From a virus: 21,930 nucleotides of DNA. The stretch covers positions 1 to 21,930 of IMG/VR virus record IMGVR_UViG_3300040801_002427; one strand, given 5' to 3'. Position 1 is the first letter of the stretch. Each line of letters opens with the position of its first letter. The notes below the pieces were generated by a model, which saw only the letters and a list, made by a program, of their open reading frames with translations, was not told the origin of the DNA and made no database searches. Made by a program: the position numbers and the translations under genes. Positions 4,809-18,348 of this stretch are shown in pieces.

Positions 4809-5372
4809 ATGAACCTTACCTGCCCATCCTGTGGCGCGAAGTCCAGCCTCGAGGCGATGACCGAGGACGCGTCCGCGCGCCGGGTGGCGGCGCTGTTCGG
4901 TCAGATGCAGCCGGAGATCGCTCGGGTGGTGCCGGGTTACCTGGCGCTATTCCTGCCGGAGAAAACCGGCCTTCGATGGTCCCGGGCGGAAACCATCCTC
5001 TCGGAGCTGTTGTCCATGATTCGGGAAGGTTACAAGCGTGGGGGGCGGCGTGTTCGGCCGTCTCCATCGGCATGGGTGCAAGCGCTCCAGGAAGTCGCCA
5101 CGCGGGATCTCCGCCGGCCGTTGAAGTCGCACGGCTATCTGATGGAGGTCGCGTCGGGTCTGGTGACCCAACACGAAGCGGCTCAGGAGCAGGCGCACCA
5201 CGACAGTCTCCGGCAAGGCAAACGCCCGTCGCGGCAGGTTGTCGATGAGCCCGTCAGCTCGATCGACAACGCCGTTGCAGCCGTCTTGCACCGCTTCGAA
5301 TGCGGCTACTTGACCGAGGACCAGCGGGATGCCGAGATCGCGGAGATCAGAAGGGGTTCTGGCGATGGCTGA
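4809..5372 (+). CDS. CxxC-containing conserved phage protein upstream of mor
   Basis: 187 residues. Starts with a zinc-knuckle-like CPSCGAKSSLEAM (Cys5, Cys8); no second Cys pair follows, so it is at best half a zinc ribbon unless it dimerises. The middle reads YLALFLPEKTGLRWSRAETI, then PSAWVQAL and PLKSHGYLMEVA, a pattern I associate with an uncharacterised phage family often found near Mor genes. AGAGGG eight bases before the ATG is a fair ribosome site. It overlaps mor by eight bases, so the two are probably translated together. Confidence 0.72.
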   Translation: MNLTCPSCGAKSSLEAMTEDASARRVAALFGQMQPEIARVVPGYLALFLPEKTGLRWSRAETILSELLSMIREGYKRGGRRVRPSPSAWVQALQEVATRDLRRPLKSHGYLMEVASGLVTQHEAAQEQAHHDSLRQGKRPSRQVVDEPVSSIDNAVAAVLHRFECGYLTEDQRDAEIAEIRRGSGDG

Positions 5373-5814
5373 TCAGCGAGACTTGATCAATTTCGAAGAC
5401 GATTTGACCGACCTGCTCGACAAGGCGGGCCTGGACAATCTGCCCAAGGACCGGTGGCCGCAGACGCTGTCAGACTTCATCGACGTGACCGAGGCCGCCC
5501 TGGCATCGGGCCGATTCACTGGCGAAGATGCTACCAAGCGCGCCGCCCGCCACGTGGTCGCGGCGCTGGCCGAGTACCTGGGCGCGCGACCGATCTATCT
5601 GCCGAGGGGCGATGCGCTGAAAACCGCGCTGCTCCACCAGTCGATCTGGCATGAGTGGGACGGCCGCTCCGAGACCAAGTGGGCGCTTGCCAAGCGGCAC
5701 AAGATGAGCGTGCGGTCGATCGAGCGCATCATCGCCGAGCAGGCGGCATTGCACCGGGATCGGTTTCAGGGCAAGCTATTCGCGGACTCTGATGAAGGGC
5801 GGCAAGGATCCTAG
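5365..5814 (+). CDS. mor: Mor-family transcriptional activator
   Basis: 149 residues from the ATG at 5365, preceded by AAGGGG. In Mu, Mor (129 residues) switches on the middle promoter and the related C (140) the late promoters, each binding as a dimer to a dyad. Residues about 30-75 form a helical dimerisation-like region. Residues 80-95 contain PRGDALKTALLHQSIW. Residues 104-124 are the helix-turn-helix, WALAKRHKMSVRSIERII. This DNA-binding end is typical of the Mor/C family. Only one Mor/C-like gene is visible, so this protein may do both jobs. The inverted repeats at 6084 and 15927 are candidate binding sites, which is inference. Confidence 0.8.
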   Translation: MADQRDLINFEDDLTDLLDKAGLDNLPKDRWPQTLSDFIDVTEAALASGRFTGEDATKRAARHVVAALAEYLGARPIYLPRGDALKTALLHQSIWHEWDGRSETKWALAKRHKMSVRSIERIIAEQAALHRDRFQGKLFADSDEGRQGS

Positions 5815-5816
5815 CG

Positions 5817-6077
5817 ATGCCGAACTACTATCGCGACGCACTCGAAGCGCTGGGCTACGTGGGCACGGTTAAGGCCGCGAGGAACAAGTTCAACACGATC
5901 GCCGCTCAAGCCGACGACCCGCAACTGCGAGAACTGGCCGCCGAAATCATCAACCTGATCGACCGTGGTGATGTTTCACCAAAACACGAACCCATCGGCG
6001 ATACAGACCGCATCCGAAACATCCGATCGGTTCGTAAGATGAAGCGATATTGCGAGTCGAAAGCCTACGCCGACTGA
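5817..6077 (+). CDS. small phage protein after mor, unknown function
   Basis: 86 residues, starting two bases after the mor stop, with GGCAAGGA a little upstream. Helical throughout: YYRDALEALGYVGTVKAARN, QLRELAAEIINLIDRG, and a basic end with RIRNIRSVRKMKRY. No hydrophobic segment or metal motif. It is the last gene before the break between the early/middle and late blocks, and the regulatory-looking region at 6078-6156 follows. Function unknown. Confidence 0.68.
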   Translation: MPNYYRDALEALGYVGTVKAARNKFNTIAAQADDPQLRELAAEIINLIDRGDVSPKHEPIGDTDRIRNIRSVRKMKRYCESKAYAD

Positions 6078-6083
6078 TCTCTA

Positions 6084-6101
6084 GCGACGCACGTCGCACC
6101 C
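6084..6101 (+). promoter_or_regulatory. dyad element GCGACG-CA-CGTCGC-ACCC, candidate late operator
   Basis: Perfect inverted repeat with 6-base arms and a 2-base centre (6084-6097), followed by ACCC. The same element, with only the two central bases changed, occurs at 15927-15944. It lies in the non-coding gap between the mor block and the lysis genes, where a late promoter should be. TATCTA at 6118 or TAGTCT at 6122 are weak -10 candidates that would put the dyad centre near -40, the place where Mor/C-type activators bind. The element is seen directly; the activator role is inference. Confidence 0.5.
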
Positions 6102-6130
6102 CTAGTAAAGCCCGTTCTATCTAGTCTTGG

Positions 6131-6148
6131 TCCATCGCACACGATGGA
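6131..6148 (+). promoter_or_regulatory. perfect hairpin just before the first late gene
   Basis: TCCATCG-CACA-CGATGGA, a perfect 7-base stem with a 4-base loop, ending eight bases before the ATG at 6157. No T-run follows, so it is not a standard terminator. It could stabilise the 5' end of the late mRNA, gate translation of the first lysis gene, or be a DNA operator. These roles are inference. Confidence 0.4.
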
Positions 6149-6156
6149 TCCAAGGC

Positions 6157-6555
6157 ATGAATTTCCCCCGCTTCGAATTCGCTGATCTGGTGAGCTGGAT
6201 CCGGGCCTGGCCGCTGGCGGCCGTGGCCGTTGTTCTGCTGGCCCTCGTCATCCTGTCCGATATCGCCCGGGTCGATGTGCTGATCTGGGGCCTGACGAAG
6301 GTCGCGGCGCTCGGGTATCTGGGCTACTGGATCGATCGCTGGCTGTTTCCCTACGCCCGGCCCCATGAGTTCTGGTGGCCTGAGGGCGATGAGGACCCGC
6401 CGGAAGACCCGGTGACCGAGCTTCAAGACTTCACGCCGGACATGGATCCGATCGGCGGTGAGATCGTCTCTAGCGGCTACATCGATCCGACGCTCCAGAT
6501 CCGTCGGGCGATCATCATCGCCGCTTGCATCCTGACGGCCACGCTGATCCCATGA
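6157..6555 (+). CDS. putative holin, three membrane segments
   Basis: 132 residues from the ATG at 6157; a TTG at 6127 would add ten residues but runs through the hairpin and has no ribosome site. Even the ATG has a poor site, with AAGG only one base away. Hydrophobic segments lie at about 17-35 (WPLAAVAVVLLALVILSD), 41-60 and 117-132, separated by an acidic loop at about 70-115 rich in Asp, Glu and Pro. Location directly before the endolysin and the size suggest the holin of a B3-like lysis cassette. The long acidic loop is unusual for a small holin. Its stop overlaps the endolysin start. Confidence 0.65.
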   Translation: MNFPRFEFADLVSWIRAWPLAAVAVVLLALVILSDIARVDVLIWGLTKVAALGYLGYWIDRWLFPYARPHEFWWPEGDEDPPEDPVTELQDFTPDMDPIGGEIVSSGYIDPTLQIRRAIIIAACILTATLIP

Positions 6556-7241
6556 TGCGCCGGCGCTCCGATTGGTGGCTGCTCAGGCTGGTCGCCTGGG
6601 TGTTCATGACCGGCTTCGCCGCGCTCGCGTTCGTCTACTTTCTGGCGTTGCAGGCCGCGCCGGCCGTGGCGGCCGAGCCCGTGCATCGGGTCTCGGTGCC
6701 GGCCGTTCAGCGCATCACCCTGACCCGAGAAGCCCAGCGCATCTGGGGGCCGGATGCTCCGGTCGCTCGCTTCGCGGCCCAAATTCATGCCGAAAGCACC
6801 TGGCGGCCTGGGGTCTGTTCGCGCGTCGGTGCCTGCGGCCTGGGTCAATTCATGCCGGAGACCGCACGCTGGCTCGCCACGCTCTACCCCGATCAGCTCT
6901 ACCCGGTGGCCGTCGAGGACTGGCGCTGGAGTGTGCGCGCGCTGGTCGTCTACAACTTCCGTCTCCACCAGGCCGAACAGGGCTGGCAATCGCACTCTGA
7001 TCGCTGGGCAGCGTCCCTGGTCAGCTACGTGGGCGGTGGCGGCTGGGTTCGGCGTGAGCGCCGCGCAACTCAGGCCGCCGGCGATGACCCCGGCCGATGG
7101 TGGGGTCACGTCGAGGCGCATTGCATCCGCGCCGTCTGGGCCTGTCGAGACTCTCGCCACTACCCGCGACGAATTCTCTGCGAGCTCGAACCGCGCTACA
7201 TCCGGGCCGGCTGGCCCGGGCACAGCCTGGAGTGTCCATGA
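6552..7241 (+). CDS. exported lytic transglycosylase endolysin
   Basis: 229 residues from the ATG at 6552, overlapping the holin stop. Residues 10-34 are a hydrophobic export signal with AVA-AE near 38-42, so it is either a cleaved signal peptide or a signal-anchor (SAR) endolysin. The catalytic domain is of the goose-lysozyme/SLT kind. AAQIHAESTWRP carries the likely catalytic Glu81, ACGLGQFMPETARWL (about 94-108) is the conserved SLT second motif, and VVYNFRLH and SYVGGGGWVRR follow. Six or more Cys in the periplasmic part suggest disulfides. The enzyme would cut the glycan strands of the cell wall at lysis. Confidence 0.88.
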   Translation: MMRRRSDWWLLRLVAWVFMTGFAALAFVYFLALQAAPAVAAEPVHRVSVPAVQRITLTREAQRIWGPDAPVARFAAQIHAESTWRPGVCSRVGACGLGQFMPETARWLATLYPDQLYPVAVEDWRWSVRALVVYNFRLHQAEQGWQSHSDRWAASLVSYVGGGGWVRRERRATQAAGDDPGRWWGHVEAHCIRAVWACRDSRHYPRRILCELEPRYIRAGWPGHSLECP

Positions 7242-7696
7242 AATGGCTCGCACTGACGCGCGTCTTCCGGCTCGGCTCGATTCTCAAGGTCTGCGTGCCG
7301 CTGGCGCTGGGCTTGCTGGCGGCCGGGTTCTGGACCGGCCAGCAGTGGCAGGCCGGCCGGCAGGCGCAAGCCGAGCTGGAGCGCGTCGAGGGTGAAATTG
7401 CCAGCCAAGACCAGGCGGACGAAGCGGCCCGGACGGAGTCCGCGAGCTTCGAGCAGCGCCGCTCCGAGCGGCTCAGGATGGGCCGGATCACGGATGCCGA
7501 GCTGCGTGCGTTCATCGCTGATCGCCCTGAGCTTTGGGACTGCGATATTGGCGATGACGGGCTGCGCCTCATCGAGAGCTGGTCAGCGCCCCTTTCCCCA
7601 GCTGCCGCCGAATCTGACGGCGGCCTGCGAGGACCTGCCCCAACCGGCCAGCGGCCAGCTGCCCGACCTGCTGATCAACCTGAAGGAACGGACTGA
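7238..7696 (+). CDS. Rz: i-spanin (Rz-like)
   Basis: 152 residues. One membrane helix at about 17-34 (LKVCVPLALGLLAAGFW) is followed by a Gln/Glu/Arg-rich coiled-coil region (about 38-85) and an ELWDCDIGDDGLRLIESW stretch at about 98-115, a pattern I associate with phage spanin/lysis-accessory proteins. The last 35 residues are Pro/Gly/Ala-rich and are encoded where the Rz1 frame overlaps. With Rz1 it would span the periplasm and fuse the two membranes in the last step of lysis. The ATG overlaps the endolysin stop by four bases. Confidence 0.8.
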   Translation: MKWLALTRVFRLGSILKVCVPLALGLLAAGFWTGQQWQAGRQAQAELERVEGEIASQDQADEAARTESASFEQRRSERLRMGRITDAELRAFIADRPELWDCDIGDDGLRLIESWSAPLSPAAAESDGGLRGPAPTGQRPAARPADQPEGTD

Positions 7697-7799
7697 ACTC
7701 TACGCGGACTGCGCCGATCGGCACGCGAGCCTGGTGCGCATCACCACGCCGCCGCCGGCCGTGCCGCCGTGGTGGCAATTCTGGAAAATCTGGTGGTGA
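7494..7799 (+). CDS. Rz1: o-spanin lipoprotein (Rz1-like), partly embedded in Rz
   Basis: 101 residues in another frame, starting inside Rz (203 bases of overlap) and running 103 bases past it. The N-terminus is a lipoprotein signal: a Ser/Ala/Leu-rich stretch ending in LAMTGC, with the lipidated Cys at residue 24. The mature part starts with Pro-rich RPFPQLPPNLTAACEDLP and has LLINLKERTELYADCADRHASL, a typical Rz1 ending, then a PPP and a Trp-rich tail. It should sit in the outer membrane and pair with Rz. The frame opens earlier (7392), but the lipobox fixes the start. Confidence 0.82.
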   Translation: MPSCVRSSLIALSFGTAILAMTGCASSRAGQRPFPQLPPNLTAACEDLPQPASGQLPDLLINLKERTELYADCADRHASLVRITTPPPAVPPWWQFWKIWW

Positions 7800-7802
7800 T
7801 TG

Positions 7803-8135
7803 ATGTTTGACTATGACGCGCTTCGATTCTGGCTGACGGCCCTGAGCGTTCTGGTGAGTTCCGGCGCGGCGATCTATGCCTGGTGGACGGCCCGCAATCG
7901 CGCCACATCGGAAGCGATCCAGGCCCTCAAGGCGGACCTGGATAAGGCCGAGCGCGAGATCGATCGCCTGAAGGGCAAAGTCGACGCCATGCCGAACCAT
8001 CGCGATATGGAAGACGTGAAGGGCGAGCTTTCCGGGCTCCGGGCCGACGTGGCCAAGCTCATCGGCTCGATGGCGCCGCTGACGCGCATGACCGAGCTGA
8101 TGACTGAACATCTGATGAGCGGGCAGAAACGATGA
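7803..8135 (+). CDS. DUF2730-like (Mu gp25-like) membrane/coiled-coil protein
   Basis: 110 residues from the ATG at 7803; the TTG at 7800 is in frame but less likely. One membrane segment at about 8-27 (RFWLTALSVLVSSGAAIYAWW), followed by a long heptad-like helix from about 33 to 90 (ALKADLDKAEREIDRLKGKV and onward). This short anchor plus coiled coil matches the DUF2730 family seen at this place in Mu-like phages. Function unknown. It follows Rz1 by three bases and overlaps the next start. Confidence 0.72.
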   Translation: MFDYDALRFWLTALSVLVSSGAAIYAWWTARNRATSEAIQALKADLDKAEREIDRLKGKVDAMPNHRDMEDVKGELSGLRADVAKLIGSMAPLTRMTELMTEHLMSGQKR

Positions 8136-8428
8136 ACAACTTTCCCGACCTGGTGCGGGCCGATCGGCGGCTGGTGATTATCCGGCTGCTGGCCCAAGCG
8201 GACAGCTACACGGCCAACCAGTACCTGCTCCACGCGGCCCTGCCTGGCTTCGGGCACAACGTGTCCGAGGACGTGGTCGTTTCCGACCTGGACTGGCTGG
8301 AAGAGCAAGGCCTCGTGACGAACGAGGACATGGGCGGCGTTCGCATGGTCAAGCTGACTCGGCGGGGCGATGACGTGCAGGCCGGCCGGGCGAAAGTGAC
8401 CGGCGTCAAGCGGCCGCGGCCGGAATGA
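8132..8428 (+). CDS. gp26-like winged-helix phage protein
   Basis: 98 residues. NFPDLVRADRRLVIIRLLAQ, then YTANQYLLHAAL, SEDVVVSDLDWLEEQGLVTN and a small wing, VRMVKLTRRGDDVQAG. This is a winged-helix fold; the pattern belongs to a small family found between the lysis and terminase genes of Mu-like phages. It may be a regulator or a packaging accessory protein, which is inference from fold and place. Eighteen bases separate it from the small terminase gene. Confidence 0.75.
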   Translation: MNNFPDLVRADRRLVIIRLLAQADSYTANQYLLHAALPGFGHNVSEDVVVSDLDWLEEQGLVTNEDMGGVRMVKLTRRGDDVQAGRAKVTGVKRPRPE

Positions 8429-8446
8429 AACACCTGGTGTTTTCAA

Positions 8447-8977
8447 ATGGGGCGTAAGTCGACCATCAAAAAGCTCGACCCGCGCATCCGCGAGGCGGTG
8501 GATGCGGCCATTCGTGACGGGCGGGCGACGATCGATGAGCTGGTTGAGCTGATCGAGCGCCACGGGGGCGAGGCGAGCCGTTCGGCCGTCGGGCGCTACG
8601 TCAAGAACACCAAGGCCCAGATGGAGAAATTCCGTCAGGCCAAGGAGATCGCCAAGGTCTGGGTCGGCAAGATCGATGAGGACCCGGACGGCGATGTGGG
8701 GCGTCTGATCTCCGAAATGCTGCGCACGGTCGCCTTCCAGACGATCAGCAACTTCGACGATTCCGAAGAAGGGGCGAGCGCCGGCGAGCTGATGTTCATC
8801 GCCAAGGCGATCAAGGAGCTGGCCCAAGCCGACAAGCTCTCCGCCGATCGAGAGATCAATATCCGCCGTGAGTTCGCCAAGAAGGCGGCCGAGGCCATCG
8901 AGAACTCCGAGGCGGTCTCGGGCATGACCCGGAAAACGGTCGACGCGATCAAGCGCGAGATTCTGGGCCTGGCATGA
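8447..8977 (+). CDS. terS: terminase small subunit (DUF3486, Mu gp27-like)
   Basis: 176 residues. Starts GRKSTIKKLDPRIREAVDAA, followed by a helix-turn-helix-like ATIDELVELIERHGGEASRSAVGRYVKN (about 28-56), typical of Mu-type small terminase (DUF3486). The remainder is helical, with LISEMLRTVAFQTISNFD. It should recognise phage DNA for headful packaging and pass it to TerL. No clear Shine-Dalgarno precedes the ATG. The stop overlaps the TerL start. Confidence 0.85.
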   Translation: MGRKSTIKKLDPRIREAVDAAIRDGRATIDELVELIERHGGEASRSAVGRYVKNTKAQMEKFRQAKEIAKVWVGKIDEDPDGDVGRLISEMLRTVAFQTISNFDDSEEGASAGELMFIAKAIKELAQADKLSADREINIRREFAKKAAEAIENSEAVSGMTRKTVDAIKREILGLA

Positions 8978-10539
8978 GCACCACCGCCGCCACCGCGCTG
9001 CCCGACATCGAGCAGCAAGACATTCTCCTCCCCTATCAGAAAGAGGGCCTCGAGGCGACGGCCGCCAATCCCGTGGTGGTCTGGGAGAAGTCCCGCCGAA
9101 TCGGTGCCACCTGGGGCATCGGTGCCGATGCGGTGCTGACGTCCGGTGCCCAGCGCGCCGCCGGCGGCATGGACACCCTTTACATCGGCTACAACCTGGA
9201 CATGGCTAGCGAGTTCATCGATACGTGTGCCATGTGGGCGAAGGCCTTCGGCAAGGCGGCCAGCGCGGTGGAGGAGTTCCTGTTCCGCGACAAGACCGAG
9301 GATGGCGACAAGGACATCCAGGCCTATCGCATCAATTTCGGGTCGGGCTTCGAGATCGTGGCGCTGGCCAGCCGGCCACGCTCCCTGCGTGGACGTCAGG
9401 GCTACGTCATCATCGACGAGGCCGCCTTCCACGATGACCTCAGAGAGCTGCTGAAGGCCGCCCTGGCGCTGCTCATCTGGGGCGGTAAGGTGCTGGTGAT
9501 TTCGACGCACGATGGCGTCGACAACCCGTTCAATCAGCTGATCGAAGACATCCGCGCCAAGAAGGTGAAATACGCGCTCGTCCGGACCACCTTCGACGAT
9601 GCGCTCGAGCAGGGCCTGTTCCGCCGGATCTGCCTGGTCAAGGGTGAGGCCTGGTCGGTCGACGGAGAGCGCCTGTGGAGGCAGGACATCATCGACAGCT
9701 ATGGCGATGCGGCCGACGAGGAGCTGTTCTGCATTCCGAGCAAGTCCGGTGGCACCTGGTTGAATCGATCGCTGATCGAGGCGCGGATGATCGACGGCCC
9801 GGTCTTTCGCTGGGAACCGCCGACGAAGGACTTCACCACCTGGCCCAAGCACCAGCGCGAAGCCGAAATGCTGGAATGGCTCGAGGCGCACATCGGGCCG
9901 GAACTCGACAAGCTGGATCCGGATCTGCAATCCGGCCTCGGCGAAGACTTCGGCCGCACCGGTGACCTGACCGTCTTCGCCCCGCACCAGGAGCGCAAGG
10001 ATCTTACCGTCCACCACCCGTTCCTGGTCGAGCTGCGGCAGTGCCCCTTCGAGCAACAGCGCCAGGCCCTGTTCTACATCCTGGACCGTCTGCCGCGCTT
10101 CCGTAAGGCGGCGCTCGATGCGCGCGGCAACGGCCACTACCTGGCCGAGGTCGCCATGCAGCGCTACGGGGAGCTTCGCATCGAACAGGTCATGTTTACC
10201 GAGGCCTGGTACCGCGAGCACACCGCGCCCTTCAAAGCGGCGCACGAAGACGGCACGATCGAGTACCCCCGCGATGCCGACGTGCTCGATGACCTGCGGG
10301 CCTTCAAGGTAGTGCGGGGCGTCCCAAGGCTCCCGGACCAGAAAAACACCGGCAAGGACGGCAACAAGCGCCACGGCGATGCCGGCATCGCCTTGCTGCT
10401 CAGCCATTTCGCATCGCGGCAAGACGCGGTCGAGTTCGATGTGCAGCTCGCCCCGAGCCGGCACAGCGACGAATACCAACGCGCCCGCGATGGTGGCGAC
10501 GACATGGATCTGCAATTCGACGGAGGCGGCGCATGGTAG
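8974..10539 (+). CDS. terL: terminase large subunit (Mu gp28-like)
   Basis: 521 residues, matching Mu-type TerL (about 550). The ATPase part has a deviant Walker A at 38-48 (EKSRRIGATWG), Walker B at about 143-149 (YVIIDEA) and a coupling motif VISTHDG at about 175-181. The nuclease part has the acidic residues expected of the RNase H fold: D325 in GEDFGRTGD, D382 in LDARGNG, D469 in RHGDAGIA. It pumps DNA into the prohead and cuts it. It overlaps TerS by four bases and the portal gene by seven. Confidence 0.93.
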   Translation: MSTTAATALPDIEQQDILLPYQKEGLEATAANPVVVWEKSRRIGATWGIGADAVLTSGAQRAAGGMDTLYIGYNLDMASEFIDTCAMWAKAFGKAASAVEEFLFRDKTEDGDKDIQAYRINFGSGFEIVALASRPRSLRGRQGYVIIDEAAFHDDLRELLKAALALLIWGGKVLVISTHDGVDNPFNQLIEDIRAKKVKYALVRTTFDDALEQGLFRRICLVKGEAWSVDGERLWRQDIIDSYGDAADEELFCIPSKSGGTWLNRSLIEARMIDGPVFRWEPPTKDFTTWPKHQREAEMLEWLEAHIGPELDKLDPDLQSGLGEDFGRTGDLTVFAPHQERKDLTVHHPFLVELRQCPFEQQRQALFYILDRLPRFRKAALDARGNGHYLAEVAMQRYGELRIEQVMFTEAWYREHTAPFKAAHEDGTIEYPRDADVLDDLRAFKVVRGVPRLPDQKNTGKDGNKRHGDAGIALLLSHFASRQDAVEFDVQLAPSRHSDEYQRARDGGDDMDLQFDGGGAW

Positions 10540-12101
10540 AGATCATCGGCATTGACGGGCAACCGCTCCGCAGCTCCAAGCCGGAGCGCGAAGATCAGAC
10601 CTCTCGGATCGGCTGGCTCCATCGAGAAATCGGAGAGCACCCGACCCGTGGGCTGACGCCTCAGCGCCTGGCCGCGCTCTATCGGCGCGCCGAGGAGGGT
10701 GACCTGACCGCCCAGGCCCAGCTCGGCATGGACATGGAGGAAAAGGACGCCCACCTGTTCGCGGAGCTGAGCAAGCGCCGGCTGGCCGTCCAGTCCGTCG
10801 ACTGGCACATCGAGCCGCCGAAGGATGCCAGCGCTCAGGAGAAGCGCGCGGCCGAGATCTGCACGGAGATCCTGACCGACGCGATCGACCTGCAGGACCT
10901 GCTCTATGACATGACCGATGCCATCCTGCACAGCTACGCCGGTTGCGAGTATCACTGGCAGCTGATCGATGGCCTCAACGTGCCGACCCAGCCTGAGTTC
11001 CGCCCGCCGGACTGGTTCCAGACCGACTACCACGCTCACCAGTACAGCCGCCTGTTGCTGCGGGATCAGAGCAGCAAAGGCACGCCGCTGCGGCCGCTGA
11101 ACTGGATTCTGCACGTGCAGCGTTCACGCTCGGGCTACCTCACCCGCGCGGGCCTGGTCCGTGTCCTGGGCTGGCCGTTCCTGATGCGCGCGCTCTCCAC
11201 CCGCGACCTGGCCGAGTTCCTCGAGATCTACGGGCTGCCGCTGCGACTCGGGAAGTACCCGGCCGGATCGACGGAGAAGGAAAAGGCTACGCTGCTCCGC
11301 GCGGTGGTCGGCATTGGCCACGCCGCCGCCGGCATCATCCCGGAAAGCATGAATGTCGAATTCAAGGAGGCGGCCAAGGGCGCAAGCGGCAACCCCTTCA
11401 TGGAAATGATGCAATGGGCCGAGGGGTCGATCTCGAAGGCCATCCTGGGTGGGACGCTGACCACCAGCGCACAGTCGACCGGCCTGGGCTCGAATCTCGG
11501 AGAGCAGCACAATGAGTGCCGCAAGGAGATTGCCCAGAGCGACCGCCGTCAGCTCAAGCGCACGATCGAGAAACAGCTGCTCGCCCCAATCACCGCGCTG
11601 AACACCACGGCCGAGCGCGCGCCGCTGTTCATCTGGGACGATGAAGAGCCGGCGGACATGAAGATGATGGCCGATGCGCTCCCTGGTCTGGTGAAGTCCG
11701 GTCTGCGAATCTCCCGGGCCTGGGTCCACGATCGCCTCAAGGTGCCGGAGGCCGAGGATGCCGACGACATCTTGCAGGCACCCGAGCCGCCATCACCCGA
11801 ACCGCCTGGCGCCGCCAGCAGCACGGCCGCGGCCAACGTGCAACCGCCTGACCGGCCCGCTGCAACCGACGCGCAGACCGCACAGCTCAAGCAGCTCGGC
11901 AGCTTTGCCGATCGGGCCATCGAGGGCTGGATCGACCAGATTCGCGAAATCGTGAACCAGGCCGAGTCCCTCGAAGACCTGGTCGAGCGGATCAACCAGC
12001 TGTTCCCGGAGATCGATGAAGACGGCTTTGCCGAGATTCTGGGTGATGCGATGGCCGCGGCTCACATGGCGGGCCGGTACGACATTCTCCAGGGCGCGTA
12101 G
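10533..12101 (+). CDS. portal protein (DUF935, Mu gp29-like)
   Basis: 522 residues, nearly the Mu gp29 length (512). Early segment RGLTPQRLAALYRRAEEGD, then MDMEEKDAHLFAELSKRRLAVQSVDWHIEPP, and a middle with LVRVLGWPFLMRALSTRDLAEFLEIYGLPLRLGKYP. All are hallmarks of DUF935 portals. About residues 415-450 form a Pro/Ala-rich linker (PEPPSPEPPGAASSTAAA), followed by a C-terminal helical domain with FADRAIEGWIDQIREI. It forms the dodecameric DNA gate at the head vertex. The next gene starts on its stop codon (TAGTG). Confidence 0.92.
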   Translation: MVEIIGIDGQPLRSSKPEREDQTSRIGWLHREIGEHPTRGLTPQRLAALYRRAEEGDLTAQAQLGMDMEEKDAHLFAELSKRRLAVQSVDWHIEPPKDASAQEKRAAEICTEILTDAIDLQDLLYDMTDAILHSYAGCEYHWQLIDGLNVPTQPEFRPPDWFQTDYHAHQYSRLLLRDQSSKGTPLRPLNWILHVQRSRSGYLTRAGLVRVLGWPFLMRALSTRDLAEFLEIYGLPLRLGKYPAGSTEKEKATLLRAVVGIGHAAAGIIPESMNVEFKEAAKGASGNPFMEMMQWAEGSISKAILGGTLTTSAQSTGLGSNLGEQHNECRKEIAQSDRRQLKRTIEKQLLAPITALNTTAERAPLFIWDDEEPADMKMMADALPGLVKSGLRISRAWVHDRLKVPEAEDADDILQAPEPPSPEPPGAASSTAAANVQPPDRPAATDAQTAQLKQLGSFADRAIEGWIDQIREIVNQAESLEDLVERINQLFPEIDEDGFAEILGDAMAAAHMAGRYDILQGA

Positions 12102-13336
12102 TGGCCACCAGCGCGCAATACGGGGCCCGGCCGTTTCGAGAGCAGCTGGAGTTCTTCCGGCAGAAAGTCAGCCTGCCGACACGGGCCTGGACCGACGTCT
12201 ACACCCGCCAGCATGACCTGGCCTTCATGGTTGCTGGCGCGGCGAAGACGGACCTGCTGGCCGATCTGCGAGCCGCCATCGAGCGCGCTATCTCCGACGG
12301 CACCACCCTCGAGCAGTTCCGGGCGGACTTCGACGACATCGTCCAGCGCCGCGGCTGGGCCTACAACGGCGGGCGGAACTGGCGGACCCGCATTATCTAC
12401 GAGACCAATCTGCGCACGTCCTATGCCGCCGGCCGGGAAGCGCAAATGGCCGATCCGGAGCTTCGTCGCCGCCGGCCCTTCGGTCTGTACCGGCACGGCG
12501 GCGCGCTGGAGCCGCGGCCGCATCACATCGAGAAGGACGGCTGGGTCGTTCCTCTCGATGACCCCTGGTGGGATGAATGGACGCCGATCAACGGCTGGGG
12601 CTGCGGCTGCAAGAAGTTCATGCTCTCGCAGCGCGATGTGGATCGCCTGGGGCTGAAGGTCATCAAGCCGCCGCCATCCCCGCGCGTCGAGCGCGAGATT
12701 GGCACCCGCGGGCCGAGCCCGCGAACGGTCAGCGTGCCCGAGGGGATCGACCCGGGGTTCGAATACCGCCCGGGGGCGCGTGCCATGCAGATCCTGAACC
12801 AGGTCGGGACCTCATCGCCGCCGGCGATCGCCGCGGCTTATGCACAGGCCGTCGCGCCGATGGTTCAGTTGATCTTGCAGCGCGAGTTCGACAGCTGGAT
12901 CGAGCGCGTGCTCCGCGATCGACAGCCACGCGGCGCGCTGGCGACGGTCGGTTTGCTGTTGCCCCTGGAGCTGACCACGCTTCGCCGCTACGGCATCGAG
13001 CCGCTGCGGACCGACATCAGCGTCGAGGACCGGTTGATCGTGGGCCGCAAAGCGCTGCGCCACGCCGACGCCGGTCGAGGCCTGTCCGACCGCGAATGGT
13101 CCAACCTGCCGACCCTGCTCGCAAACCGCCAGGCCGTCCTGTTCGATCGGGTGAACGAGAACCTGCTGTTTGTGCTGTCGACCGAGGGCGACGTGGCCAA
13201 GGCCGTGATCGCGCCGGACTTTCGGTCCCGGGAAGGATCAACGGTGAACTCGGTTCGGACGCTGTTCCGCACAAGCGCCCGGGCGCTGCGGGACCGCACG
13301 CGCTACGAGCTGATCTGGGGGGCGATCGATGAATAG
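12101..13336 (+). CDS. F: MuF head morphogenesis protein with extra C-terminal nuclease-like domain
   Basis: 411 residues from a GTG that shares a base with the portal stop. The N-terminal MuF domain (about 1-185) contains NWRTRIIYETNLRTSYAAGR at about 93-112 and DGWVVPLDDPWWDEW with INGWGCGCKK at about 146-172, the usual MuF end. A linker (about 186-245) leads to an extra domain of about 160 residues. Its end reads VLFDRVNENLLFVLS, AKAVIAPDF, STVNSVRTLFR and RYELIWG, a beta-rich pattern like the Barnase/EndoU/ColicinE5/RelE-type nuclease domains often fused to MuF proteins. The MuF call is firm; the nuclease-like call is a pattern judgement. Confidence 0.87.
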   Translation: MATSAQYGARPFREQLEFFRQKVSLPTRAWTDVYTRQHDLAFMVAGAAKTDLLADLRAAIERAISDGTTLEQFRADFDDIVQRRGWAYNGGRNWRTRIIYETNLRTSYAAGREAQMADPELRRRRPFGLYRHGGALEPRPHHIEKDGWVVPLDDPWWDEWTPINGWGCGCKKFMLSQRDVDRLGLKVIKPPPSPRVEREIGTRGPSPRTVSVPEGIDPGFEYRPGARAMQILNQVGTSSPPAIAAAYAQAVAPMVQLILQREFDSWIERVLRDRQPRGALATVGLLLPLELTTLRRYGIEPLRTDISVEDRLIVGRKALRHADAGRGLSDREWSNLPTLLANRQAVLFDRVNENLLFVLSTEGDVAKAVIAPDFRSREGSTVNSVRTLFRTSARALRDRTRYELIWGAIDE

Positions 13337-13500
13337 AGCAGCGAGCGGAGGGACGGCAGCTCCCTCATCCAAGATCCTAACGCGCCTCTTCCCGAGGAAC
13401 GCGATACAGGGTACTCGTGCTGGCGCGCCGATTTTCCAGCGTCGCTCGCCGAATCCTGAGCATAGCAGGTTCCCGGCAACACCAGGCACGGAGCGCGATC
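13337..13500. other. gap between MuF and gpG genes, hairpin inside
   Basis: 164 bases without a convincing gene. GAGGGA (13348-13353) and TCCCTC (13361-13366) form a 6-base stem with a 7-base loop just after the MuF stop; no T-run follows, so it is not a classical terminator. A 61-codon frame starts at 13329, but its Pro/Arg/Ser-rich product looks non-coding. GGAG at 13490-13493 is the gpG ribosome site. Confidence 0.4.
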
Positions 13501-13965
13501 ATGGCCGGCACTGAGATTCGGATGGAGTCCAACGCGGCCGAGGTCGCGAATTTCTTCGCCGCTTTCGCCCAGCGCGTCGATGACCTCGAGCCGTTCTGGC
13601 TCGAGGTGGCCGAGTACCTCCAGCTCTCTCACCGGTATCGCTTCGAGCTGGCGATCAGTCCCGACGGCCAGCCCTGGGAGCCGCTGGATCCGGATTACCA
13701 GCGTCGCAAGAAGCGCAACGCCAGCGAAATCCTGGTCCTGGACGCCTTCCTACGCGATCAGCTCGCGGGCGAGGCGACTCCCGAAGGGCTCGAATTCGGC
13801 ACCAACCGAATCTACGCCGCCACCCACCAGTTCGGCGACCCGGATCGCGGCATCCCGCAGCGCGAGTTCCTGGGCATCTCCGACGATGACGAAGGCGAGA
13901 TCCTGCGGCTGGCCCAGGAGCACCTCGAGTCGGTCATTCAGTCGACCGCCTCAGATCGCCTGTGA
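13501..13965 (+). CDS. G: virion morphogenesis protein (Mu gpG-like)
   Basis: 154 residues, almost the Mu gpG length (156). Begins AGTEIRMESNAAEVANFFAAF, then LEVAEYLQLSHRYRFE and PDGQPWEPLDPDYQRRKKR at about 58-76, and RIYAATHQFG and PQREFLGIS near the C-terminus. The W-P-L-P, H-Q-F-G and R-F-L-G landmarks are those of the gpG/phage_tail_S family, which joins head or tail structures. GGAG lies seven bases before the ATG; the frame opens earlier but without a ribosome site. Confidence 0.87.
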   Translation: MAGTEIRMESNAAEVANFFAAFAQRVDDLEPFWLEVAEYLQLSHRYRFELAISPDGQPWEPLDPDYQRRKKRNASEILVLDAFLRDQLAGEATPEGLEFGTNRIYAATHQFGDPDRGIPQREFLGISDDDEGEILRLAQEHLESVIQSTASDRL

Positions 13966-13983
13966 GGCCGTTTTCGGGCCTCA
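13963..13983 (+). terminator. hairpin overlapping the gpG stop, terminator-like
   Basis: TGAGGCC-GTTTTCG-GGCCTCA: a perfect 7-base GC-rich stem whose first three bases are the gpG stop codon. A T-run is missing after the stem, so a complete rho-independent terminator is not shown. It could act as a weak terminator, an RNA-stability element or an attenuator before the fibre genes. Confidence 0.35.
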
Positions 13984-14018
13984 GGGCACCGGGAGTGAGG
14001 AAAAAGCGATTCAGGGGC

Positions 14019-14053
14019 CTTTGCAACGGAGTGCAATGGCTTTGCAACGAAGT
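14019..14053 (+). repeat. direct repeat CTTTGCAACG(G/A)AGT, 21-base period
   Basis: Two 14-base copies, at 14019-14032 and 14040-14053, differ at one base. A third TGCAA lies between them, so TGCAA recurs at 14022, 14032 and 14043, about one helical turn apart. The array lies in the 111-base gap before the fibre genes. It may be a protein-binding array or a small tandem duplication; no function is shown. Confidence 0.5.
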
Positions 14054-14076
14054 AAAAGAGGACACGGAGCGAAAGG

Positions 14077-14406
14077 ATGAGCGCAGAGATCGAATTCAAG
14101 CCCGGAGACAGCTTCGACCTGGTCAATACGTCGCCGCTGGTGATGGAGGGGCCGTCGGGTCCGGTGACGGACTTCACGGGCTGGACGGCCGCGGCTCAGG
14201 TTCGCCTTCGTGACAATCTGGTCGAGGATCTGGCCTTTGATTGGTTGGACGCCGCAAGCGGCCTGTTTCGCGTTTACGCACCGGGCCCGACAGATGACTG
14301 GCCCATTCCGGCGGTCGAGTGTGACATCCAATTCACGGCACCCGACGAAACGATCGTTTCGACAGAGACCTTCATCATTCGAACCGTCAAGGGTGTGACG
14401 CGATGA
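14077..14406 (+). CDS. small beta-rich structural protein (BppU-N-like)
   Basis: 109 residues with AAAGG just before the ATG. Reads as a compact beta domain: [80 protein letters not shown]. The pattern of a GD(S/T) start, a middle aromatic patch and a final TFxIxV strand is like the N-terminal domain of BppU-type baseplate/fibre proteins. It is probably a structural partner of the collagen-like fibre that follows with an ATGA overlap. The link is inferred from position. Confidence 0.68.
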
Positions 14407-15344
14407 CCCTCGAGCTCGCCCGTCGCTACCGATTTGCAGGGCCGCTCACGCTTGAGGCGAAATTCGGTCGGGTTACCCTCTACGCGGCGCGTTCCAGCGT
14501 GGGGGTCTCGCTGCCGGCGATCGTCCAGGGCGCTCAAGGGCCCGCTGGGCCGACTGGTCCAGTCGGCGCGCAAGGGGAGCCCGGACCACAAGGGCCAGCT
14601 GGCCCATCCGGCGCTCCCGGCCCACAAGGGGAAGCCGGGCCTGCTGGGCCCGCCGGTGAAACGGGCCCGGCAGGCCCCATCGGGCCCGCTGGGCCGGAAG
14701 GTCCGCCCGGGGCAAATGGCCTCGATGCCAATATCTATATCGGTAGCGGGTTTGATGGCTCACCGCTGCAAGCCTTCGTGCCGAATAATTGCGTGCTGTT
14801 TGGCGACGCAAGCGCACCGCAATCCGGGCAGGTTCCAGGCGCTGCCATTGGGCAGCTTGATTACACGTTCGGGCTGAATTTCGTTGCTTCGAATACGACC
14901 ATGAACATGCTGGCGCGTGCCTATATGCCGAACAGCAACGGCCAAGGCTTCTATTTCGGGTGGGGCATCGACGCAAACAACTACGTCTATTCGTTTCTGA
15001 CGAGATCAGCGCTGACCTGTTTCGAAGTGGTCGGGGGCGTGCAGACTCAGACCGCAAGTTATTCGATTTTCAACGGATTGGTAATGTCCAGCAATTGGGA
15101 CGTGCTAACCATCGGCTCGCATCAGACAAACCGTGCTGCTCGAGTTGCATCGCTTTTTCGACCCCACGGGCAGGGAGATTCGTCGCTATGGGCCGGGGAA
15201 ATCCCACCAATCACTGACGCCACGCTGAACGATGTTCGAAACTGGAGTTTCGTCGGCTTCGGTCACAACTTCGAGACGACCTATCCGATGGCCGTCGCGA
15301 TAGGCGCCAACCAAAATATAACCATTACTGACGGCGCACCATGA
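14403..15344 (+). CDS. collagen-repeat fibre protein
   Basis: 313 residues. A 42-residue N-terminal part is followed by 21 uninterrupted Gly-X-Y triplets (residues 43-105; for example GPAGPTGPV and GETGPAGPI), then a 208-residue C-terminal domain rich in Asn, Ser, Gly and aromatic residues. Gly-X-Y runs form collagen-like trimers and occur in phage fibres, where the C-terminal part usually trimerises or binds a receptor. Its codon use is more A/T-rich in the C-terminal part than in the neighbours. It lies inside the head gene cluster, between gpG and the protease, so it could be a head fibre or a displaced tail fibre. Confidence 0.82.
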
Positions 15345-15751
15345 TCCTGATTATCCCAGAAGGCGAGCAGTTCGACCCGGCAAGCGCCCCGGATCATGTC
15401 TTGTTCTGGCGCATCGTAGAGCGTCGATTCGATCGAATAGAAGTTCAATCTAGCGATCCCGAAGCGCTTCAACGCTGGGCCGCTAGCCGTGGTTACTACA
15501 CGCCAGAGTCAGTCCGATCTGAGCAGCTCTGGATCGCGCTCTATCAGACTGATCTGGCGGTGTTCGCGGCCGTAGAGCAGATGGTGGAGTCGAGTACCCC
15601 GATTCGCCTGGCCACCCGTGCCGCCATTGTGAGGCGTGTCTCACAGACTGTCGCCGGCCTGCGTGATGCCTTGCAGGCGTCAGGCTTTGACTATGTGGAC
15701 GACGCCTGGCTTGATCGGCTGTGGCAAGCAGCGATTCAAATCGAGACTTGA
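15341..15751 (+). CDS. hypothetical protein after the fibre gene
   Basis: 136 residues, coupled to the fibre gene by an ATGA overlap. Beta-like start ([13 protein letters not shown]) with [29 protein letters not shown], then a helical part with [33 protein letters not shown] and [10 protein letters not shown]. No membrane segment or known motif. Position suggests a fibre-assembly chaperone or an attachment protein, but that is only neighbourhood inference. Confidence 0.65.
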
Positions 15752-15900
15752 GCGACGGATTGATCGCCATAGACGAGGCGGGCATATTTAGTATCCTGCT
15801 GTCTGCTGTGTCGGTTTTCCTGTTCCTCGCCGTGAAGTCCTGGTTTATCGCGATTGTCGGCCTGGCGTTAATGATCTGGATGCTTGTTCGACAGAAATAG
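15748..15900 (+). CDS. small membrane protein with TTG start
   Basis: 50 residues from a TTG that overlaps the previous stop by four bases (TTGA). After an acidic start ([11 protein letters not shown]) come two hydrophobic stretches, about 13-29 (FSILLSAVSVFLFLAVK) and about 31-47 (SWFIAIVGLALMIWMLV), and a short basic end (RQK). The reading is supported by clear membrane-helix composition and the tight coupling, despite the rare start codon. Function unknown. Confidence 0.55.
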   Translation: MSDGLIAIDEAGIFSILLSAVSVFLFLAVKSWFIAIVGLALMIWMLVRQK

Positions 15901-15926
15901 GGCGAAGGCCAGCGGAATAGCCGACA

Positions 15927-15944
15927 GCGACGGCCGTCGCACCC
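15927..15944 (+). promoter_or_regulatory. second copy of the GCGACG-NN-CGTCGC-ACCC dyad
   Basis: GCGACG-GC-CGTCGC is a perfect 14-base palindrome (15927-15940), followed by ACCC. 16 of 18 bases match the element at 6084-6101; only the central two differ. It lies in the 77-base gap before the protease/capsid genes. GATCAT at 15965 is a weak -10 candidate at the same distance from the dyad centre as TAGTCT at the first copy, but it would leave almost no leader before the ATG. Role as an activator site is inference. Confidence 0.5.
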
Positions 15945-15977
15945 AGCACATAGCGCCCGGCCCTGATCATTCGGGGC

Positions 15978-17057
15978 ATGGCCAGATCCCAAGTCATTGT
16001 TCCCTTCGCTGCGTGTGCCTTGAAGCTCGGATCCGCTTCGCGCGAGATCCAGCTCCTGCCGGCCGGCGAATTCACCGCGCTCGATGGTCGGCCGCATGAC
16101 GTGGCCTCATGGAAATTCGACGCGGATCAGGCACAACAGTGGATCGCCGCCCTGCGGCAGCGCCGCACCCCGTTCGTCATTGACTACGAGCACCAGACTC
16201 TCCAGACGGCCGACAACGGCAAGCCGGCACCGGCCGCTGGCTGGTTCACCGCCGCCGGCCTGGAGATTCGCAACGGCGAACTCTGGGCCACGGATGTGGA
16301 GTGGACCGCCGCTGCCAAGGCAGCAATCGAGGCCAACGAGTACCGGTTTATCTCCCCTGTTTTCAAGTACGACAAATCCTCTGGCGTGATCACCGGGCTG
16401 GTCAACGCCGCCCTCACCAATTCACCCGCAATCGACGGCATGGAGCAGGTTCTCCGGGCCGCCGCGAACCAGTTTGCAAACCACCAGGAGACCGACGTGG
16501 ATCCGAAAGAACTCCGCAAGGCGCTCGGCTTGTCCGAAGACGCCTCAGACCAGGACGTGCTCGCTGCCTGTGCGCAGCTCGTTTCCGAGCGCGATGAACT
16601 GAAGACCGGCAATGCCGATCTCGAAACCCAGCTGGCTGCCGCCAATCAGCAGCTCGAAGACACGGGAAATCCGGACCCGGCCAAGTTTGCGCCAATCCAG
16701 GTCGTGAATGATCTCCGTGATCAGGTCGTGGCCTTGAGCCAGCAGGTCACCGGCGATCAGGTCGATGCACTGGTGACGGCCGCGCTTTCCGACGGCCGGC
16801 TGTTGCCGGCTCAGAAAGACTGGGCAACGGACCTGGGCAAGAAGGACATCGCCGCCCTGAACGCCTACCTGGAGACCGCAACGCCGATCGTCGGCCTGCG
16901 TCAACGGCAGAGCGAGGCCGATGCCCAGCGCGAAGCCGCAGCCAGTGAACACGGTTTGACAGTCGATCAGCTGGCGATCTGTAACTCGCTCGGGCAGGAC
17001 CCGGCCGAGTATGCGAAATCCCTGAAAGCCCTCGAGGAGGAAAGCTCATGCCGCTGA
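15978..17057 (+). CDS. I: prohead protease (Mu gpI-like), scaffold-fused
   Basis: 359 residues, essentially the length of Mu gpI (361). Protease part at about 1-160: IQLLPAGEFTALDGRPHD near 24-41, FVIDYEHQTLQT at about 66-77 with the DYEH motif, and YRFISPVFKYD at about 121-131, all standard for the Mu-like protease family. The second half (about 173-359) is Gln/Glu/Ala-rich and coiled, and is the scaffold region. It processes the prohead during head maturation. The ribosome site at this start is weak. It overlaps the decoration gene by ten bases. Confidence 0.9.
   Translation: MARSQVIVPFAACALKLGSASREIQLLPAGEFTALDGRPHDVASWKFDADQAQQWIAALRQRRTPFVIDYEHQTLQTADNGKPAPAAGWFTAAGLEIRNGELWATDVEWTAAAKAAIEANEYRFISPVFKYDKSSGVITGLVNAALTNSPAIDGMEQVLRAAANQFANHQETDVDPKELRKALGLSEDASDQDVLAACAQLVSERDELKTGNADLETQLAAANQQLEDTGNPDPAKFAPIQVVNDLRDQVVALSQQVTGDQVDALVTAALSDGRLLPAQKDWATDLGKKDIAALNAYLETATPIVGLRQRQSEADAQREAAASEHGLTVDQLAICNSLGQDPAEYAKSLKALEEESSCR
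16497..17057 (+). CDS. Z: nested scaffold protein (Mu gpZ-like), in-frame internal start
   Basis: A GTG at 16497, in frame with the protease, follows AGGAG (16486-16490) by six bases. This is a better ribosome site than that of the protease itself. Starting there gives 186 residues beginning DPKELRKALGLSEDASDQDV, with a long coiled Gln/Glu-rich middle. In Mu the scaffold gpZ is made in the same way from within I. The site is seen; use of it is inferred from Mu and from the site strength. Confidence 0.7.
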   Translation: MDPKELRKALGLSEDASDQDVLAACAQLVSERDELKTGNADLETQLAAANQQLEDTGNPDPAKFAPIQVVNDLRDQVVALSQQVTGDQVDALVTAALSDGRLLPAQKDWATDLGKKDIAALNAYLETATPIVGLRQRQSEADAQREAAASEHGLTVDQLAICNSLGQDPAEYAKSLKALEEESSCR

Positions 17058-17469: not shown

Positions 17470-18348
17470 ATGCTGATCAATCAACAGAGTCTGCGGGATC
17501 TCTTCGTCGGGTTCCGTAACGACTTCAACACGGGTTTCCGCTCGGTCGAGCCGATGTGGAACCAGATCGCCACCCTGGTGCCGTCGATGACGGCCGAGAA
17601 CCTCTACGCCTGGCTGAAGCAATTCCCCCAGCTGCGTGAGTGGGTCGGTGATCGCTTCATCGAGAAGATGGCCACCGAGGCCTACCGCCTGCCGAACAAG
17701 AAGTTCGAATCCACGGTCGAGGTCTCTCGAGATTCGATCGAGGATGACCAGTTCGGCGTCTACTCTCCGATGTTCCAGGAGATGGGCTTCGCCGCGGCCG
17801 AGCATCCCGATCACCTGGTGTTCGGTGCCGTGGCGGCCGGGTTCGATGAGCTCTGCTATGACGGCCAGCCGTTCTTCGACACGGACCACCCGGTCGGCGA
17901 TGGCGTGGTGAGCAACATGCAGGCCGGCGGCGGCACGCCCTGGGTCCTGCTGGATCTCCGCCGCCCGCTGAAGCCCTTCATCTTCCAGCGCCGCCGCGAC
18001 TACAACCTCGACGCCATCACCACCAAGGACAACGAGAACGTGTTCATGCGCGACACGTACCTCTACGGTGTCGATGCCCGCGTGGCCGCCGGCTACGGGT
18101 TCTGGCAGCTGGCCTACGCCAGCCGAGCCGACCTGAACGAGGCGAACTTCAAGGCCGCCCGGGCCGCCATGAAGGACATCAAGTCCGACGCGGGCCGCCC
18201 GCTGGGCATCCGCCCGACGCACATCCTGGTCGGCTCCAGCCGCCTGGATGAAGCCGAGGCGCTGATCAAGCGCGCCAATGGTGCCGGCGGCGAAGGCAAC
18301 ACCCTCTACAAGGCGGTGGAGATCATCGAATCTCCGCACCTGGACTGA
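17470..18348 (+). CDS. T: major capsid protein (Mu gpT-like)
   Basis: 292 residues (Mu gpT is about 305), with AAAGGAG before the ATG. Landmarks of the Mu-like gpT family: IATLVPSMTAENLYAWLKQFPQLREWVGDR at about 34-63, KFESTVEVSRDSIEDDQFGVYSPMFQEMG at about 78-106, FDTDHP at about 136-141, and HILVGSSRLDEAEALI near the end. It builds the icosahedral head. The gene order protease-decoration-capsid fits. Confidence 0.93.
   Translation: MLINQQSLRDLFVGFRNDFNTGFRSVEPMWNQIATLVPSMTAENLYAWLKQFPQLREWVGDRFIEKMATEAYRLPNKKFESTVEVSRDSIEDDQFGVYSPMFQEMGFAAAEHPDHLVFGAVAAGFDELCYDGQPFFDTDHPVGDGVVSNMQAGGGTPWVLLDLRRPLKPFIFQRRRDYNLDAITTKDNENVFMRDTYLYGVDARVAAGYGFWQLAYASRADLNEANFKAARAAMKDIKSDAGRPLGIRPTHILVGSSRLDEAEALIKRANGAGGEGNTLYKAVEIIESPHLD

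Follow-up and report, generated by a model that had tools for sequence, protein, structure and literature searches.

Paired dyads as putative sites of a Mor-family activator at two late promoters of a Mu-like phage, each within an inverted repeat that ends at a start codon

Introduction

A fragment of a Mu-like phage genome carries one short palindrome twice, once ahead of its lysis genes and once ahead of its head genes. Which protein, if any, would read both copies, and what would follow for expression of the genes downstream? The fragment is a single IMG/VR record of 21,930 bases with 64% GC, analyzed over its full length and referred to here as the window. A first-pass annotation, made from the sequence alone, had proposed a late regulon of two promoters run by a Mor-family protein encoded nearby. 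In phage Mu, Mor acts at Pm through two 5-bp inverted repeats centered at −43.5, in place of a −35 element (PMC4390567), and the related activator C drives lys, I, P, and mom (PMC4461284).

Results

The Dyad Pair and Its Genomic Context

Two perfect copies of a dyad, and only two, are present in the window: GCGACGCACGTCGC (GCGAC-GCAC-GTCGC, positions 6084–6097, plus strand) and GCGACGGCCGTCGC (GCGAC-GGCC-GTCGC, 15927–15940, plus strand), each followed by ACCC. The 18-base copies that the first-pass annotation placed at 6084–6101 (GCGACGCACGTCGCACCC) and 15927–15944 (GCGACGGCCGTCGCACCC) are indeed there, and both lie, as it had described, in short non-coding gaps (6078–6156 and 15901–15977). 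Its remark that a third perfect copy is missing can be extended, since a search of the whole 21,930-base record that tolerated up to two mismatches over the 18-mer found none. The fuzzy motif search that it had suggested was run on the record and on relatives; it revealed no extra copies in the record, and the relatives conserve the positions.

Both gaps separate genes of the same strand. The first is preceded by an 86-aa ORF without a family match (5817–6077) and followed by the holin gene that opens the lysis/late block (6157–6555, plus strand; PF13272, E 2.6e-12, phrog_1528). The second lies ahead of the gene for a Mu-like I protease/scaffold, which opens the capsid block (15978–17057, plus strand; PF10123, E 3e-99). 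Genes for portal (10533–12101) and gpT capsid (17470–18348) are also present. The Mor-family transcription activator (161 aa, 5329–5814, plus strand; PF08765, E 8e-19, phrog_532) is encoded 270 bases upstream of the first dyad, in agreement with the first-pass annotation, and is homologous to solved chains of Mu C (9l0x, 9vw8) and Mor (1rr7). It is the one Mor gene found; a second activator, in the form of a separate C gene, is absent from the record. In a relative, L003, the slot between Mor and the dyad is occupied by an ORF other than the 86-aa one.

Taken alone, the pair is only moderately unlikely. A pair of 6+2+6 palindromes with identical arms was present in 7% of sequences simulated with an order-2 Markov model, and any identical-arm pair that also had a common 4-base flank in 1%. 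A mismatch-tolerant count revealed no excess of dyads over shuffled sequences (6 found, 6.0 expected). The significance of the pair is thus decided by its conservation in relatives.

Conservation of the Dyads in Related Phages

A scan of genome contigs with the portal as query found no relative, and a query with the protease returned 80 viral loci. In relatives at 58–77% protein identity, the element occupies corresponding places but with altered letters. L003, a 41-kb contig whose portal is 69% identical to that of the window, has a dyad ahead of its holin gene (GCGACAACCGTCGC, L003:5355) and another one 37 bases from the protease ATG (GCGACACGCGTCGT, L003:18893). In L004 the protease-site dyad, TTGACACACGTCAA, is again 37 bases from the ATG, as in the window, and its arms are substituted symmetrically (TTGAC/GTCAA). 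Given these dyads, and the joint change of both L004 arms, the motif unit is, judging from the relatives, 5+4+5, i.e., GCGAC-N4-GTCGC. The first-pass annotation had described a 6+2+6 element with an ACCC flank. Its arms are perfect in the window, but 6+2+6 was rejected as the motif unit, because relatives keep 5+4+5 only. ACCC was rejected as well: it follows the dyad in the window and in L004, and ATACA is found at both L003 sites.

Across ~140 Mu-like phages, a dyad of 5+4+5 shape tends to precede the protease (gpI) ATG by ~37 bases. With starts chosen blind to the dyad, 21 of 71 nonredundant loci had a perfect 5+4+5 dyad at an offset of −52 to −50 relative to the protease ATG, and no other offset had more than two. 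The arm sequences vary among phages (CTGAA, CGGAA, CTGAC, ACGAA, CCGAA, TTAAC, and GCGAC). In L212, L216, L244, and L253, a longer dyad, TTTTT(GCG)..(CGC)AAAAA, occupies the Mor-site position ~50 bases before the protease ATG, and the examined DNA of these phages yielded no Mor gene.

Within a phage, the same arms tend to be used twice. The protease-promoter arms recurred downstream of the same phage's Mor gene with a 10/10 match in 18 of 48 cases (one of them, L073, is trivial, being the phage's own PI site, and was discounted), compared to 0.3% when arms of other phages were used and 0/935 for shuffled arms. Matches of at least 9/10 were observed in 29 of 48 cases versus 4.4% with other phages' arms; such a second site downstream of Mor is absent in ~40% of relatives. 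In L073 the gene order is different, the Mor gene being located directly upstream of the protease promoter (L073:3255–3961).

A third Mor-type dyad is present ~9 kb past PI in three relatives (L085:18598, L051:18973, and L064:18749), followed by a −10 element and an ATG ~37–39 bases on. This site, which is placed as at Mu PP, would be a P-type promoter with the same near-leaderless geometry. The rest of the 41-kb L003 contains only matches without promoter context. Two late promoters are a minimum for the window phage, because its record ends 5.9 kb past the second site and a third one occurs ~9 kb on in some relatives.

The Mor Recognition Helix and the Arm Sequence

The recognition helix of the window Mor, MSVRSIERII, contains R129 (helix position 0), E132 (+3), and R133 (+4). 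Mor sequences were aligned to PI arms in 53 clusters, and all Mor columns were scanned against all arm bases. The top score of the scan was obtained for helix position +3 and arm base 2 (z 8.1), where W or Y goes mostly with T, R with G, and E, Q, M, or L with C. The second score was that of helix position 0 and arm base 3 (z 5.8), with R paired to G. Arginine at +4 pairs with C at base 5 (9/10 versus 3/43, p 5e-7). The closest Mor pairs that have differing arms differ at the expected helix residues: R/Y in the helix goes with G/T in the arm for L114/L085, and Q/Y goes with C/T for L096/L055. Exceptions to the code are L091 (WR with CTGAA), L111 (E with C), and L197 (R with T).

Fitted to PI arms alone, the code led to an 8/8 site at most 1.3 kb downstream of Mor for 31 of 84 genes versus 2.9% with other patterns, in a test that is not fully independent, as the test regions share phages with the fit. 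For the window, which is among the fitted clusters, R129/E132/R133 give a predicted xCGAC, and this fits GCGAC. That R129 reads base 3, E132 base 2, and R133 base 5 is strongly supported by this covariation. A literature search, with most subscription papers outside its reach, found no paper on a Mor recognition code.

Promoter Geometry and the Start of the Protease Message

A logo was built from 89 protease starts, whose choice weighted dyads and ATG; ~20 loci whose start codon was unclear were excluded. It has A at −11 in 69, T at −7 in 62, and C at −1 in 85 of the 89 starts, and ATG in all of them. From this logo, the −10 element of the window I promoter is predicted to be GATCAT (15965–15970, plus strand), which sits one base upstream of the logo position; the geometry of the 89 relatives likewise suggests TAGTCT (6122–6127, plus strand) as that of the lysis promoter. 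Both hexamers are weak. The L003 lysis promoter has TAGCCT at the matching place.

The Plys start is predicted at A6134, 37 bases from the dyad end and after a C. At PI, transcription would most likely start with A15978, the first base of the protease AUG (or with C15977), which would make the message leaderless; with the start at the AUG, the PI dyad is centered at about −44. The first-pass annotation had counted the near absence of a leader at the second site as a caution. With the most likely start on the A of the AUG, it is no objection. A Shine–Dalgarno 4-mer is found upstream of only 3 of 63 gpI starts versus 465 of 1053 other ORFs, and, together with the start geometry, this suggests that the protease mRNA is probably leaderless. 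A literature search on leaderless late genes of Mu-like phages found no paper, most subscription papers being beyond its reach. An activator-free σ70 promoter was rejected, as no σ70 consensus promoter occurs in 5300–16100.

Two annotated phages deserve a remark. The annotated protease start of DMS3 (L176:11038) is apparently ~126 bases too far downstream, and in both DMS3 and D3112 (L175) an unannotated ORF follows Mor, with its ATG ~37 bases past the Plys dyad.

Inverted Repeats at the Start Codons

At both sites an inverted repeat ends at the start codon. The lysis repeat (6124–6156, plus strand) has its 5′ arm at 6124–6137, straddling the predicted transcription start, and its 3′ arm at 6142–6156, covering Shine–Dalgarno-like bases and ending at the holin ATG. 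The protease repeat, GCCCTGA-TCAT-TCGGGGC (15960–15977, plus strand), abuts the protease ATG. The predicted fold of lysis read-through RNA is −21.7 kcal/mol (z −4.0) compared to −1.6 for RNA from 6134; at the protease the values are −19.0 kcal/mol (15945–15983, z −3.1) and −1.6 for RNA from 15978. Since the 5′ strand of the lysis repeat and the entire protease hairpin are upstream of the predicted starts, both structures would be foldable only in read-through RNA. No match to a known RNA family was found in Rfam.

The pairing was evaluated by exchanging the 5′ part between phages. At PI the mean stem score was 7.66 versus 5.96 in swaps (sd 0.17, 500 swaps, 63 phages); for a set of 50 independent genome loci, their starts chosen blind to the dyad, it was 6.87 versus 5.51 (sd 0.19). 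At Plys, cross-start pairing was −14.5 versus −11.3 in swaps (sd 0.55, 36 relatives). Covariation of the two repeat strands across phages is thus shown statistically, at the level of sequence. A stem score of at least 8 is reached by 52% of protease starts versus 3.6% of other starts (57% versus 9% among GC-rich starts).

The enterobacterial relatives L057 and L067 have no hairpin at PI. An intrinsic terminator stands in the place of the Plys hairpin at L057:1430, L120:5843, L121:5589, and L236:1970; the terminator's 5′ strand lies on the predicted late start or before it, so termination there would affect read-through RNA alone. In L145:5609, L152:5475, L081:1789, and L066:1832, a terminator (GCGCCCC..GGGGCGCTTTCTT) is located between the dyad and the −10 element of Plys.

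Discussion

We consider it highly probable that the two dyads serve the phage's own Mor-family activator as binding sites at late promoters Plys and PI, and that each promoter is nested in an inverted repeat that ends at an ATG and would gate read-through RNA. A Mor dimer would dock on GCGAC-N4-GTCGC, centered near −44, in place of a −35 element, and would activate host σ70 RNA polymerase on a weak −10 element, with the PI transcript most likely beginning at the first base of the protease AUG and the Plys transcript near 6134. RNA reading through from upstream would fold into a hairpin and hide the start region of the first late gene, and Mor-initiated RNA, in which the 5′ strand is missing at the lysis site and the entire hairpin at the protease site, would be open. 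Mor binding, the start sites, activation, and translational gating are what we infer from comparative sequence analysis. The two-promoter late regulon run by Mor, as the first-pass annotation had envisaged it, gains support from dyad position, recurrence of the arms within a phage, covariation of helix and arms, and a predicted Mor/C-like geometry with a −10 but no −35 element. The features of Mor/C late promoters that were found are a phage-encoded Mor, 5-bp inverted repeats fitting its helix, and sites before the lysis block and gene I.

Chance palindromes in a genome of 64% GC are hardly credible as the source of the pair. The window by itself would leave room for them, as its mismatch-tolerant dyads do not exceed the shuffles and identical-arm pairs with a spacer of 2 arise in 7% of Markov sequences, but chance alone is refuted by conservation of the dyads at matching positions in relatives, and the symmetric L004 substitutions and the offset, arm-recurrence, helix, and code tests speak against it as well. 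Perfect dyads at promoters are often operators, and the DNA of the dyad alone names no binder, so a repressor, host factor, or nucleoid protein could be imagined on these sites, with Mor nearby by chance. We regard this as very improbable, because the letters of the arms vary in step with the recognition helix of Mor in more than 50 clusters, close Mor pairs with altered arms change exactly in that helix, and the distance to the ATG agrees with Mor/C geometry.

A less remote, though still rather unlikely, possibility accepts the dyads as Mor sites and takes the repeats at the ATG as DNA- or promoter-level features only, i.e., a GC-rich discriminator with matching upstream bases and no gating of translation. 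The PI repeat does bracket the −10 element (5′ arm at about −18 to −12, 3′ arm at −7 to −1), C at −1 is almost fixed, and σ70 RNA polymerase favors G-rich sequence in the stretch from the −10 element to the start. At PI, the GC-rich 3′ strand may indeed be partly a promoter discriminator. Such a role does not account for the covariation of the 5′ strand with the 3′ strand across phages, nor for the intrinsic terminator hairpins in that place in L057, L120, L121, and L236. Moreover, where leaders are longer (the lysis sites of the window and L003), the repeat tracks the ATG and not the −10 element. The repeats of the two window promoters also differ in their arms (CTTGGTCCATCG versus GCCCTGA), which argues that no shared DNA-binding protein reads them. 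Translational gating of read-through RNA remains our preferred reading: the hairpins seem to hold back lysis and head-protease translation until the activator starts the message at the right place.

Whether this arrangement is general is a more delicate question, and we lean only slightly toward a positive answer: Mu-like phages would place Mor/C promoters within hairpins or terminators that block read-through (a start-codon hairpin in most phages, a start-straddling intrinsic terminator in others), restrict late expression, including that of a leaderless head protease, to the activator, and specify the regulon by a three-residue code. Mor/C promoters have been described before, and so have T4-type locks; an incomplete literature search turned up neither a combination of the two in Mu-like phages nor the helix code. 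Three residues would largely give the DNA specificity of the whole Mor/C family and could help to locate the late promoters of uncultured phages; a two-copy palindrome thereby becomes a testable regulon. Should the hairpins work in the predicted way, the read-through lock of T4 gene e would also operate at the lysis and head genes of Mu-like phages, and one core gene of these phages would be translated from leaderless mRNA.

Related devices exist elsewhere. In IS10/Tn10 and IS50, the ribosome site is masked by folding in transcripts from external promoters and stays open in native RNA. There the transposon is shielded from host transcription, whereas here late genes would be separated from upstream phage transcription. 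In T4, an inhibitory hairpin has its 5′ strand outside the late RNA of gene e, and this RNA is translated well (PMC3014915). Genes e, soc, and I-TevI resemble the predicted arrangement in having a start-hiding hairpin in long upstream RNA and a late RNA without its 5′ strand. T4 employs its own late σ factor, whereas the window has predicted Mor-activated σ70 promoters, and, unlike at gene e, the entire hairpin is upstream of the predicted start at the window PI.

The closest counterparts are the Mu promoters Pm, Plys, PI, PP, and Pmom, with a dimeric Mor/C-family activator, two 5-bp inverted repeats near −44, a −10 element without a usable −35, and sites ahead of the lysis block and gene I. 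The spacer is 6 at Mu Pm and 4 in the window, whose arms are GC-rich; unlike Mu, the window has its one Mor gene directly before the late genes and no separate C in the record. Mu PI has a short leader, whereas the window protease mRNA is predicted to be leaderless. At Mu PI (L174:10515–10562), a 7-bp repeat, CTGCTCA/TGAGCAG, surrounds the estimated start and adjoins Shine–Dalgarno bases, and the predicted fold is −14.7 for read-through RNA versus −1.5 for RNA from the start, the Mu start being an estimate.
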